Assembly (NCBI GenBank): GCA_026390635.1
Contig: JAPLFO010000140.1
Span: forward strand, 19,069 to 75,425
Length of the DNA stretch: 56,357 bases
Source: Ignavibacteriales bacterium
Lineage (GTDB): Bacteria; Bacteroidota; Ignavibacteria; UBA10030; UBA8401
Direction of reading: 5' to 3'
In this document: piece after piece, positions 7,685 through 56,123 of the stretch
Numbering within the stretch: the stretch's first letter is position 1
Layout: the number at the start of each line of letters is the position of its first letter
The notes under the pieces: model-generated
The model's input: only the letters and a program-made list of their open reading frames with translations
The model's database searches: none
Told to the model about the DNA's origin: nothing
Program-made: the position numbers and the translations under genes

Positions 7685-8016
7685 GAGCTATCTCAAAAAT
7701 CCTGGGCAAGCATCATTGCAATGACCATCTATTTTTGAAATGACTTCTAGAAATCTAGTCGAAAACTCTCGTCCGGCAATTGACAGTAGTGTAGATCGAG
7801 ACGAAAGTCTTGATCCGTCAAATCCTTGGTCGCGACTCCACGGAGTCGCGCTACAAAATGTACTCCATTCTACGGTGAGCGGACTTTTCGACCACGTTTC
7901 TATTGCACCCAGCGATCATCTCGACTTGGGTTGGCAAGCTTGGTCGAGCCACGCCCGATGACCGCCGAGGTGAGGTCACCGAGCGCAGCCGAGGTGACAC
8001 ATCCCAATAGAGAAAA
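7685..8016. other. 332-bp gap between convergent genes rodA and GHL10 protein
   Basis: No coding potential that I trust. It holds the paired REP hairpins at 7791-7854. Further right (about 7960-8000) is an imperfect repeat of GCCGAGGTGA next to GTCACCGAGCG, the sort of G+C-rich repeat that accompanies REP units. No clear T-tailed terminator was seen, so the REP pair may end both transcripts. Confidence 0.5.
7791..7854. repeat. Inverted pair of REP hairpins (BIME-like)
   Basis: Left unit: GTAG (7791-7794) then a near-perfect hairpin with GAAA loop (ATCGAGAC-GAAA-GTCTTGAT). Right unit, read on the minus strand: GTAG (7854-7851) then CGCGACTCC-GT-GGAGTCGCG (7850-7831). The two face each other across about 15 bases. 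A GTAG tetranucleotide 5' to a palindrome is the known hallmark of REP units recognised by REP-associated tyrosine transposases. The same units flank such a transposase gene at 51131-51796. Confidence 0.8.
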
Positions 8017-49688: not shown

Positions 49689-49767
49689 GCGACTTTCAAT
49701 CCATTCATTCATAAGAATATTTGTGGTTGACACTGAAAAGAAAAACTAGCACCGGGTAATTGACACC

Positions 49768-50991
49768 ATGATCCTTTCCTCCATTGCCGAACAGTACGTC
49801 CGGCTCGTTCTCAAACTCGGACTCTACGACGAAGATTTTGTCGATGCCTATTACGGACCCGACGAATGGAAACCGACCGGCTCAAAACATTCATCCTTTC
49901 CCGCCGAGGAATTCCTGCACCGAACCGCCTCCCTCGCTATCACACTGCAGAATGTTGCTCTGGCTGCAGACGAGGAAGAACGCCTTCGCTGCCGGTCATT
50001 AGCAAAACAGATTATTGCACTGGACGCGCGGGTGCGCTTTTTGAGCGGCACCGGGTTTTCATTCGACGAAGAATCCCGATTGCTTTATGATGCGGTGGCG
50101 CCGCACAACGACGAAGCCCATTTTCGCCGTCTTCTTTCATCCCTTGATGGGCTACTTCCCGGTACCGGCAGTGTTCATGAACGATTGGATTCATTTCGAA
50201 AGTCCTTCGTGATTCCGGTGGATCGGCTGGACGCTGTATTCTCCGCTGCCACCACAGAAGGAAGAAGAAGAACTCTTGAGTATATTGCACTTCCAAAGGA
50301 AGAGCGCTTCACTGTCGAATATGTTACCGGCAAAGCATGGAGCGGCTATAATTGGTACAAGGGAAATTGCTTCAGCATCATTCAGGTGAATACAGATTTC
50401 CCGATTCTCATCGATCGCGCGGTGGACCTTGCGTGCCACGAAGGATATCCGGGACATCATGTTTTCAACATGTTGATGGAAACCAATCTCGTGCGCCGCA
50501 GGAAATGGATGGAATTTTCCGTCTATCCCCTTTTTTCTCCCCTTTCGCTGATTGCGGAAGGAAGCGCCAACTTCGGCATTGAAATGGCTCTTCCCGAAAA
50601 AGATCGGATTGATTTTGAACGAAAAACGCTCTTTCCTCTCGCCGGTCTCGATGCTGCGCGCACAGAAGAATACTATGCAGTGCAGAAGCTCATCACCAAA
50701 CTGCATTACGCCGGCAATGAAGCGGCGCGCGGCTATTTGGACGGAGTGTTGAACAAAGACGCCGCGGTCGAATGGCTTGTGACATATGCTTTGTTCGAAC
50801 CGAAACGCGCGGTCCAGCGTATTGGTTTTTTTGAAAAATACCGCAGCTATGTGATCAACTATAATCTGGGATTGGATCTTGTCCGTGCATCGATCGAGAA
50901 GCGCGGGGGAACAATAGACAATCCATCGCTGCGCTGGAAACTGTTTGAAGAACTGCTTTCTCTGCCGCCGACGCCGGGATCGTTGAGGTAG
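49768..50991 (+). CDS. DUF885-like metallopeptidase
   Basis: 407 aa, no signal peptide. The zinc motif reads HEGYPGHH (224-231), a variant HExxxxH spacing, followed by a Glu in LIAEGSANFG (~264), the arrangement of the DUF885/M3-like group. The substrate-channel segment GKAWSGYNWYKGN precedes it. Probably a cytoplasmic oligopeptidase or carboxypeptidase; family members are mostly uncharacterised. Confidence 0.7.
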   Translation: MILSSIAEQYVRLVLKLGLYDEDFVDAYYGPDEWKPTGSKHSSFPAEEFLHRTASLAITLQNVALAADEEERLRCRSLAKQIIALDARVRFLSGTGFSFDEESRLLYDAVAPHNDEAHFRRLLSSLDGLLPGTGSVHERLDSFRKSFVIPVDRLDAVFSAATTEGRRRTLEYIALPKEERFTVEYVTGKAWSGYNWYKGNCFSIIQVNTDFPILIDRAVDLACHEGYPGHHVFNMLMETNLVRRRKWMEFSVYPLFSPLSLIAEGSANFGIEMALPEKDRIDFERKTLFPLAGLDAARTEEYYAVQKLITKLHYAGNEAARGYLDGVLNKDAAVEWLVTYALFEPKRAVQRIGFFEKYRSYVINYNLGLDLVRASIEKRGGTIDNPSLRWKLFEELLSLPPTPGSLR

Positions 50992-51013
50992 CAAGATATT
51001 GCAGATTGCATTT

Positions 51014-51063
51014 GTAGATCGACTCTGTGCATCACGTTTGTAGATCGAGTCCGTGGACTCGAT
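51014..51063 (+). repeat. REP unit(s) downstream of the RAYT gene
   Basis: A complete unit at 51040-51063: GTAG then ATCGAGTCCGTGGACTCGAT, a 9-bp stem with a GT loop. A degraded copy starts at 51014 (GTAGATCGACTCTGTGC). A further imperfect hairpin (ACTCGG-CGCCA-CCGAGT) lies near 51083-51100. The remaining gap to the RAYT stop is unremarkable. Confidence 0.8.
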
Positions 51064-51130
51064 GCGTGGAGATCTGCACAAGTACTCGGCGCCACCGAGT
51101 CGAGCGGAGGAGGAAGGGTGCTTTGCTTCA

Positions 51131-51796
51131 CTACAATTGCCCGGCCCTTCGATAGTTCCATTTCCACTCCAACTCATCTTTTGATAGCCCTGCTTTGACC
51201 GGATTATTAAGGACATAGCTTACGATTCTTTCCAATTCTTCAGCATTCCTTACTAAATGATCGTACGTCTCATATTGCCACAATTGACCGCTTCTTCCCA
51301 GCCGATTGTTGATAACACTGCTTGTCCTTTTTTTCAATGCGCCGATAACATTTGCCAGGCGGTGGTGCCATTTTTGATTTGACAAGTCGGTGGGTGACTC
51401 ATCCCTATTAAGACGAATCACCATGTGGACATGATTCGGCATGATTGTGCTCGCAATCAGAGTATACATCGTCCCGTCTCTTTTCCTCATACCCGCCGCA
51501 ACAATTTCGGCAAGATCATCTCTCTCAAGAAGCTTTTCACCATGCCTGCAGCAATCCAGGTATTCCTCCATTAATTGAAAAGACGCTCTCTTCTGTCTTT
51601 TCATACGATGATGTGCCGCCGCCGTAGAGATCTGGTGTCGGCCTTTCAGTTTGGCAGCTCCAATATCTTGCTCCATCTGTTCAAGGACGGCGGGGGGAAT
51701 GGTGCCGGCAAGACGAAACGTGACAAAATAAATGCCGCCATTTACGATAAAGTGTGGAAGAGTGCGATGATAATGATAGCATCCGGACTGGTTCAA
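51131..51796 (-). CDS. REP-associated tyrosine transposase (TnpA_REP / RAYT)
   Basis: 221 aa, Y1_Tnp (IS200-like) HUH domain. Key motifs: PHFIVNGGIYFVTFRLAG near the N-terminus, the metal-binding HUH pair in IMPNHVHMVI, and the catalytic Tyr in YETYDHLVRNAEELERIV followed by SYVLNNPVKAGL. It cuts single-stranded DNA at REP hairpins. A single domesticated copy with no IS ends, flanked on both sides by inverted REP units, is the RAYT pattern. The start is TTG with GGGAGG four bases upstream. Confidence 0.9.
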   Translation of the reverse strand: MNQSGCYHYHRTLPHFIVNGGIYFVTFRLAGTIPPAVLEQMEQDIGAAKLKGRHQISTAAAHHRMKRQKRASFQLMEEYLDCCRHGEKLLERDDLAEIVAAGMRKRDGTMYTLIASTIMPNHVHMVIRLNRDESPTDLSNQKWHHRLANVIGALKKRTSSVINNRLGRSGQLWQYETYDHLVRNAEELERIVSYVLNNPVKAGLSKDELEWKWNYRRAGQL

Positions 51797-51825
51797 TTGG
51801 CCTCCCTGTTTTTAGTGCACACTCT

Positions 51826-51849
51826 CTCGACTCCATGGAGTCGAGCTAC
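51826..51849 (-). repeat. REP unit upstream of the RAYT gene
   Basis: On the minus strand GTAG (51849-51846) then CTCGACTCCATGGAGTCGAG, a perfect 20-bp palindrome (51845-51826). Inverted relative to the unit at 51040-51063, and nearly identical to the right unit at 7831-7854. Confidence 0.85.
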
Positions 51850-51874
51850 AGATTTGAATTGCAGATATTTTTCT

Positions 51875-54800
51875 CTACAATTTCCCCGCAACAACGGCCA
51901 CTTCTTTCAATGTCCGTATCGCATTCCCACGGCCATCCAATGCTTCAAAGAGAATGACATACATTCCGATCCGCACTCGCTGGCGATAGTCATCGAGACC
52001 GTCCCAGAAAATTGTGCCCGTGGAAGCCGATGCCTCCCTCTCTGCCAATGTTCTAACTAACCGTCCTGTAATGTCAAAGCAACGCACGCGGAGAAGTGCA
52101 ACTGCCGTCGGAAGTTCATACGAAATGCCAAGCATATCTTCAATACCATCATTGTCCGGCGAGAATGGGTTGGGAAACAAATGAAGCCGGCCGGCCGATG
52201 GAACCACTTGGGTGAAGATGGAGTTTCGGTTTCCCGGTGTACCTCCTGCGGGATCAACACAAGAACTCCAGGTGTGCCCGGTGTTTTCAAAAACATCCGG
52301 ATTGATCCGCTCAAGTGATCTCCCCTCAGGCACCAAGCCCGCCAGATGCCATGACGGCACATAGCAAACACTGTCGACAATTGAGCCTGTCTGATCGTAC
52401 AGCACAACATCATCGCCGTCATTTCCCAGTCCAAGATCGTGGCGGGCGGCACATAACTGACTGTCGGCAAGTCCTGGAAATTGCTCACACAGGACGGAGT
52501 CTTTCGCGATGACAAAATATTCCCCCGGATACTTCGGTCGCAGGCCTGCTTGAAACATTGTTGTTGTTCGAGAGCCCGATGCGGACGGACTATCCGCGAG
52601 ACGCCACCCTTCCAGCGAGATCGTATCTGCGGATCGATTATACAGCTCAACGTATTCTGCGCATCCCGCTCGCGGATTGTACATGATTTCGTTGATGATA
52701 ATCGACTGCGGCCGATACGCTGAGGCGATACGTATCACCCCGACATTGTTTGACTGCCGCTGATCATCTTCCGCCGCGGCCACCGCCAGAAATGTCTGAA
52801 TGCCTACTCCAATCGTGTCTGGTTGCCAATGAATTATCAATGAATCACCCGGCACACATCGTGTCGCGATCCGTTCTGCATGAACCAGTTCGTCGCTGTC
52901 CGGAAGAGAGTCCCTATCCCGGTCATGATACCACGACATTGTGACGCCAGTGATTTCAGTTCTTCCAATATTTTTTGCCGTTGCGGATATGAGGATCCCA
53001 CCCCCGCTCCGTTCATACCACGTACGCAGAAGAGTCATGTCTGTATCTTTTCGGGCAAAGTCATTCTCCATTCCCGGCGAAGGTACGCCGACATACCAGT
53101 TTGCAGAATCGCAGGAACCGCCTGCATCGTCAGAGCGCTGCAGCGAGGTTCCATTCACTCCACCCCAGGACGGACGGTACCACACGCTATCCATAACAAT
53201 ATCCCGATTGTCATAGAGAACAACCGCATCCGGAGTTGTGTTGTTGAATGCTCCATGAGCGGCAAACACAACCGGAACAGATGTCGCCACGTACTGATAC
53301 AATGTCGAATCCGCGGTGAGCAGAAAGAAAGAATGGGGTGCTACCCGTGTTTGCGGACCATGAACGGCCCCCCGTTGGCTCGTTCCTGCATCGGAGATTT
53401 TCCATCCACCGATATCTATCCAGGAATTCGTTCGGTTATAACATTCTACCCATTCGGGCGCTTCGTCCGTCGGCGCATACATAATTTCATTAATCGCGAT
53501 ACAATGCGGCAAACACCCTACACTGAATCGTAGTGACGCGTGGTTGTTGGTCGTGTCTTCATCTTCTGCAAATGACACAGAGGCGGCCGCACCATATTCC
53601 CCCTGTTTCAAGACGCCACAATTGAGGCTCACCTCTGTTGAATCGCCCGGCATCAGGACGCCTGCCGTGCTTTCTTCTATGAGGCATCCCTCGGCGGGAA
53701 AAGCAAACGGATACTGCACGCACTCAACACTCAGCCGGATATTCTGCGCTGGACACCGTCCATTGTTTTTAATCATTCCGCGCATAAGTATTGATGAGTT
53801 GACGACGGGATTTCGTGGTTCGATCGTGAGGCGCATGAGAGCCGCATCAAAGTCTTTGGGGGAAAGACTGTTGCTCATACCTGGAGTCGCACCAAGCGGG
53901 TGGCGGGAACTTCCCCAATTCGACGATTGAGTGGAAGATACCGCCGTGTCGATCCGTTCCAGCGATGTGCCGCCCGTGCCGCCCCACGAAGCATCATATT
54001 GAACGCTGTCCATGAAATAGCCCGACGGATCCAGAAGAACGACAGCATCTTTTGTATTACCCAGGCTCGGAAGAGACGTACGCAATACTCCGGCGGCGCA
54101 GGAGGGATAATACTCCGCGATTGCGCTGTCTTTTGATATCAAAAAATATTCTTTGGGATGGACGATAAATGATTGTGTTGTTAGTGTCACGCGAGATGAT
54201 AGATCGCTGATCTTCCAATCTGCGAGATCGAGCGTGTCAAGAGAAATGTTCATGCACTCCACCCATTCGGGTCCGTTACTTGGAGCGTACATAATTTCAT
54301 TGATCAGCACCGAGCGATTGCGCGGAAGTATTGTTGTATAGAACGATGCGGTATCGTTGGTCACATCTTCGTCGTTTACAGCAGAGAGTCGTCCGGTGAT
54401 GCGATGTTTGCCCGGCCGCAGCCCTGCAACCGTGAATGACAACATAATAGAATCGCCGGAGGCAAGCGACTTCTCCATGCCCGTATCCGCAAGCTGCCTG
54501 TTGCCGTACCAACATGAATCCATCACGACGGTCCGAAAATTGCAGGGACCGCTTTCCCCTAGATTCTTAATTGAGAGCGTTAGTGTTAGTGCAGAACCCG
54601 TTCGTTCAAAAAATCGTGGCCCTGAGATCGCAGCGAGCGCAAGATCGACCGACTTTGCGACACCAATGGAAATATCGTCTATGCGGTAGATTCCCGCCGT
54701 GCTTGCTCCATTTCCCAGACATCGCCAGCGGATTCGAACATTTGTGTGATGCGAGAGAGCTGGCGGAAGAGACACTACTCTCTTTACATATGCCGTTGCA

Positions 54801-56003: not shown

Positions 56004-56123
56004 GTGAAAGAATGTAGTGACAAATATCGACAAATTCATTGACTGAAATCACACACTTCGGCACGGCTATCGATTGCCTCTGCAAGAAAAGGAATCTGCT
56101 TTTAGAAACCTGGTCGAAAGGCA

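Follow-up and report, generated by a model that had tools for sequence, protein, structure and literature searches.

A probable REPtron in an Ignavibacteriales bacterium: a single-copy RAYT gene, its GTAG-footed REPs and REPINs bracketed by MITE ends

RAYTs are defined by the placement of two inverted REPs around their gene (PMC2817692). Among these transposases, subclass 2.4 is abundant in Cyanobacteria and Bacteroidetes and has long GTAG REPs (PMC6006769), although Di Nocera et al. (PMC3733652), in a survey of GTAG repeats, reported these from Proteobacteria, Cyanobacteria, Chloroflexi, and the PVC group, and for Bacteroidetes and Chlorobi listed CGTC repeats alone. An earlier note on the DNA considered here had called its REP/RAYT system little described for this host group; this holds with regard to that survey, but not with regard to the subclass 2.4 GTAG REPs already reported from Bacteroidetes. 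The biochemistry of RAYTs in the papers cited here concerns groups 2 and 3, in gammaproteobacteria, whereas the locus described here is a compact group-4-like pair of enzyme and REPs from Ignavibacteria. It lies in a window (the whole stretch of DNA that was analysed, 56,357 nucleotides) of an Ignavibacteriales genome, and is very probably a REPtron, i.e., a single-copy RAYT of the HUH/Y1 superfamily, probably of subclass 2.4 (Bertels group 4), together with its cognate GTAG REPs. This reading draws on the gene, its motifs and its fold match to TnpA_REP, on the structure and orientation of the REPs, their dispersal and their compensatory stems, and on the absence of the family from relatives. 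The kind of element is known; what is new is the particular set of REPs, the group to which the host belongs, and a REPIN nested in a MITE.

The RAYT gene and its flanking hairpins

The RAYT gene occupies the gap between convergent genes, the neighboring ORFs ending at 50991 and 51875 (Table 1). A Y1 transposase gene had been proposed at this position from the letters alone, and it proved to be real. In fact, the protein matches Pfam Y1_Tnp at 26.1 bits (cut-off 23), and carries an intact HUH motif (H122-V-H124) and an intact tyrosine motif (Y194-V-L-N-N-P), that is, the combination of HUH and a single tyrosine in the form Y-x-x-N-P. The other match, to the NCBIfam model NF047646 ("REP-associated tyrosine transposase"), reaches 76.9 bits (E 1.4e-21) and remains below the curated equivalog cut-off of 80, which is counted against the REPtron reading. 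These two models are the sole matches of the protein in Pfam and NCBIfam, and PHROGs gave just one weak match, of unknown function. Six residues (H122, H124, W173, D179, R183, and Y194) are invariant across 62 aligned sequences. The residues of E. coli TnpA_REP that contact the GTAG foot are W94, Q95, and R104 (PMC6006769, PMC8266576), and W173, Q174, and R183 of the RAYT align to them.

Table 1. Features of the RAYT locus and of the dispersed element in the window
Feature	Position	Strand	Description
RAYT/TnpA_REP gene	51131–51796	−	221 aa, TTG start, stop codon within TTGTAG
Shine–Dalgarno of the RAYT gene	51801–51807		AGGGAGG
Upstream REP B'	51826–51849	−	GTAG CTCGACTC CATG GAGTCGAG; start codon 29 nt away
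Downstream REP A'	51040–51063	+	GTAG ATCGAGTC CGTG GACTCGAT; orientation opposite to B'
Decayed third REP (B'')	51085–51108	−	CTCGACTC GGTG GCGCCGAG; foot lost
Half REP	51014–51029	+	GTAGATCGACTCTGTG; 5' foot and one stem arm
Dispersed REPIN element, complete	7747–7903	+	convergent gap after rodA/ftsW-like ORF
Outer inverted repeats of that element	7747–7765, 7885–7903	+, −	both present
REP A of that element	7791–7814	+	
REP B of that element	7831–7854	−	

With regard to structure, a profile built from relatives of the RAYT and compared with solved structures found only E. coli TnpA_REP (4ER8, E 6.8e-10). The same structure, TnpA_REP bound to a REP, was the best solved match of an AlphaFold model of the protein (pLDDT 87, pTM 0.83), with Z 15.6 over 140 residues, and the IS608, IS200, and ISDra2 enzymes of the IS200/IS605 family gave Z 11.8 and lower (range 10–12). 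The modeled fold is nearer to TnpA_REP than to IS200/IS605 TnpA. Thg1-like proteins and ribosomal protein S6 also appeared in the fold search; they were taken to share a ferredoxin-like arrangement and not to be relatives.

The hairpins on both sides of the gene, previously described as inverted and GTAG-headed, were borne out by direct reading of the sequence: A' and B' carry GTAG on the outer side and the hairpin toward the gene. In each of them the stem has 8 bp without mismatch and the loop has 4 nt, with DNA folding energies of −6.9 (A') and −7.4 kcal/mol (B') that were equaled in none of 200 shuffles. The decayed third REP, the half REP, and the dispersed copy of Table 1 are additions to that description. 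A' and the decayed B'' make up a broken head-to-head dimer, and the stretch 51075–51105 is 74% identical to the stretch 51816–51846. In addition, B' and B'' lie on the same strand, one at each end of the gene, as in IS200. This placement, the Y1 transposase fold and the Z of 10–12 to the IS608, IS200, and ISDra2 enzymes are what a typical IS200/IS605 insertion sequence moving as a whole, with the hairpins as its left and right ends, would have in its favor. Such an element is nevertheless very improbable, since the genome holds one copy where several near-identical full copies mark an autonomous insertion sequence, the flanking units are inverted and GTAG-footed, the closest fold is TnpA_REP, and the closest family model is a REP-associated one.

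Perfect 8-bp hairpins number 32 in the window, and three of these are preceded by GTAG, two at the RAYT gene and one at 7854; the combination was absent from 20 shuffled windows, and the REP pattern has three matches where 0.03 are expected. A search of Rfam with 49700–52500 gave no match. Ordinary transcription terminators are expected between convergent genes such as those that enclose the locus, but the idea that chance palindromes or terminators happen to stand beside an unrelated transposase gene can practically be set aside. Apart from the shuffles, the RAYTs of relatives also have GTAG hairpins, the REP family is dispersed with fixed orientation and dimer spacing, and the copy counts given below already contradict both chance and terminators.

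Other observations concern the edges of the locus. A possible 9-nt target duplication, ATTGCAGAT, is present at 50998 and 51858; target duplications are not known for this class of transposase. The stop codon of the RAYT gene falls inside a GTAG (51131–51136), as if the REP foot supplied it; among the RAYT genes of relatives (L104–L182), 24 of 76 end in GTAG and 35 of 76 stop with TAG.

The dispersed REP family and its outer repeats

Genome-wide counts were obtained from pattern searches and fetched stretches. The strict REP pattern has 6 matches in the genome (control 0), a search allowing up to three mismatches has 66 against 1 for the reversed-pattern control, and a generic pattern has 64 against 2. 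The REP family is therefore not confined to the window, and the genome contains about 70 related REP units. Among 72 collected units, three hairpin variants were distinguished: A (stem ATCGAGAC), B (CGCGACTC), and the flanking type C ([AC]TCGA[CG]TC). The CGA/TCG core of the stem is nearly invariant, and the variation in pairs 1, 2, 6, and 7 is compensatory. A' corresponds to variant A and B' to variant B, each with one pair swapped in a compensatory manner. This defined set of variants (A, B, and flanking type) allows the reading of stem pairs by the enzyme to be asked directly. The palindrome noted earlier is dispersed in the form of variants; of the exact flanking 24-mers A' and B', no second copy was found in the 72 units. 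The lack of an exact second copy is counted against the REPtron reading, as is the fact that the most abundant units, A and B, are not of the flanking type.

The units of types A and B, which make up most of the dispersed ones, are joined head to head in a 64-nt REPIN with fixed spacing at 16 loci and one more, and three 90-nt versions also exist. With an inverted REP pair, conserved spacing and multiple copies, these elements are REPINs by definition. Units of type C, present at about nine loci, stand alone or form dimers whose spacing varies. Since A' and B' have the polarity of a REPIN, the RAYT gene occupies the place of the REPIN linker. As for genomic context, the longest ORFs leave 33 of 43 REP clusters uncovered, and 2 of the 33 are enclosed by divergent ORFs, a placement judged from mechanical ORFs in which some "inside" calls are open ORFs at the ends of stretches. 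Tandem 12-nt foot repeats, GTAGCGCAACCT and AACTCGATCTAC, adjoin REP B and REP A at G000:C30:17192-17465 and C49:11250-11314.

The mechanism that we propose for the REPtron would begin with a monomeric RAYT binding a single-stranded REP (GTAG foot and 8-bp hairpin), the foot acting as a guide for the enzyme. Tyr194 would then cut at a C/T-T site adjoining the foot, with His122 and His124 holding the metal, and the strands would be rejoined, so that single REPs and REPINs of the same genome would be copied or moved at a low rate. A T precedes the foot in 65 of the 72 units, and the TnpA_REP of Stenotrophomonas and Marinomonas cut at CT (PMC8266576). DNA cutting by the RAYT, its action on the A and B variants, and any mobility at present are inferences.

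Similarity around the A/B REPINs extends beyond the REPs, on the left for about 45 nt and on the right for as much as 68 nt. The consensus, a 176-nt element whose ends are inverted repeats (CTAGAAATCTGGTCGAAAA), has 44 pieces in the genome and none in 22 relatives. The outer repeat CTAGAAATCTGGWCGAAAA was matched 38 times in this genome (control 0), most often on elements of 125–160 nt that have no REP and an unrelated interior (CCACAAAG..CTTTGTGG). Examples of these MITEs, with the interior CCACAAAG..CTTTGTGGC, are found at G000:C24:15895-16055 and C73:15215-15339, and in the window at 56102–56120. About half of the A/B loci have one or both outer repeats in recognizable form at constant distance, which is likewise counted against the REPtron reading; among random 70-nt stretches, 38 of 3000 contained such a match. 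They stand 43–48 nt outside REP A (10 copies) and 47–49 or 65–68 nt outside REP B (8 copies), and the complete window copy bears both.

Because the outer repeats are shared with the MITE, TIR-type MITEs may have carried the A/B REPs along for part of their spread. In its full form, this alternative holds that the RAYT serves only the flanking-type REPs (the roughly nine C-type loci) and that another transposase spread the A and B copies via their outer TIRs; the REP-free elements and the near-constant distances speak for it, and we regard it as a tenable minority reading. Against it, several A/B REPINs have no recognizable arms (for example C30:17401 and C49:11250), A and B are each one compensatory pair away from the flanking REPs of the RAYT, and no transposase was identified for the outer repeats. 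This alternative disputes only who spread the A/B copies, not the reading of the locus as that of a RAYT. At the locus itself, outer MITE arms are absent and the 176-nt element matches over REP A' alone. A further possibility, which we consider less likely than not, would be that the A/B elements are chimeras on which two unrelated transposition systems act, with a RAYT-type REPIN core set in a MITE with 19-nt TIRs and copied by either machinery. If true, this nesting would be a route to genome-wide REP expansion where RAYT-flanking REPs usually stay local.

REPs and RAYTs among relatives

The strict pattern with one mismatch has 12 matches in the genome and a single, weak one among 97 other members of the order, so the palindrome is not equally common in relatives. 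For the generic pattern, every one of 99 related genomes stays at background level or close to it. Neither of the two outcomes that the earlier note gave as breaking the link was thus obtained. The closest RAYTs of relatives share about 40% identity with the one described here. The link between the RAYT and its REP family is a species-level co-occurrence, drawn from genomes outside the genus, and is not a controlled test. These genomes offer no empty site, which is also counted against the REPtron reading.

Another claim of the earlier note, that the gene and its REPs form a self-contained unit, was not sustained. Neither excision nor insertion was observed, the RAYT gene is single-copy, and its next relative in the genome, RAYT2 (L032/L086, G000:C159:3603-4427), is 44% identical over 159 residues and is accompanied by different REPs, three in number (GTAGCGCGAAACGAAGTTTCGCG and one variant). 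All three are local, and no dispersed copies of the RAYT2 type were found in the genome. Similarly, the REPs next to the RAYTs of two related genomes (G042 and G048) are confined to the RAYT locus, and those of a third (G012) nearly so. A different picture is given by G013, a member of the same family with 95 matches to GTAGGGCGAAACGGCGTTTCGC, which is close to the REP type of RAYT2; neither single-sequence nor profile searches found a RAYT in this genome, which is 71% complete. Local-only REPs beside RAYTs, on one side, and the REP-rich G013, on the other, indicate that the presence of a RAYT is not a predictor of dispersal. This is counted against the REPtron reading as well, and it means that, within one order, possession of a RAYT and possession of a dispersed REP family are separable.

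The RAYTs of 80 named relatives from many phyla were also compared. Near these genes, strong flanking hairpins are preceded on their 5' side by GTAG more often than by any other tetramer, with 84 of 1400 starts where about 5 would be expected if tetramers were uniform. Inward GTAG/GTGG units box 12 of the 80 genes on both sides, and at least one unit is present at 32. RAYT-bearing stretches are present in G020 (same family) and G090 (same order). In the RAYT tree, only the pair L031 and L136 is supported (0.91), the remaining placements being poorly supported. Finally, a distant Y1 transposase gene of the genome (L033, G000:C148) contains the palindrome GTAGGGAACAGGCATGCCTGTTCCCTAC inside its frame (1417–1444), with a foot at both ends, and so resembles the REPs that subclass 2.4 is reported to have within its genes.

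Comparison with known systems

The REPtrons of Stenotrophomonas, Pseudomonas, and E. coli (PMC2817692, PMC8266576) likewise consist of a single gene with two inverted GTAG-hairpin REPs, and share with the present system the scattering of variant REPs in intergenic DNA, the HUH-Y fold, and the residues that contact GTAG. In contrast, the present system belongs to another RAYT group and phylum, and has a perfect 8-bp stem and a YRTG-type loop. It is also smaller, with about 70 REP units compared with some six hundred in E. coli and thousands in some Pseudomonas.

Closer similarity is found with subclass 2.4, or Bertels group 4 (PMC6006769). The RAYT has in common with it NHVH, WQ, and NNP after the tyrosine, and the two systems share a Bacteroidetes host, long perfect GTAG REPs, and REPs inside the transposase genes of relatives. 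On the other hand, the RAYT has YV (YVLNNP) instead of YI and a distance of 70–72 residues between HUH and tyrosine compared with a median of 88, and its own gene has no internal REP. By most motifs the RAYT probably fits subclass 2.4, an assignment that is not a formal one.

Known REPINs or BIMEs with dimorphic REPs (PMC3116915, PMC2817692) are, like the A/B elements, dispersed pairs of two variants placed head to head at fixed spacing, although in the present genome such a pair often forms the center of a longer element bounded by outer TIRs. Another example of a fusion between REPs and an unrelated repeat is that of the double inverted repeats of P. putida and P. fluorescens, in which degenerate GTAG-1 units are joined to unrelated stem-loops (PMC3733652); here, however, the fusion is found on the dispersed A/B elements, and the flanks of the RAYT are free of outer repeats.
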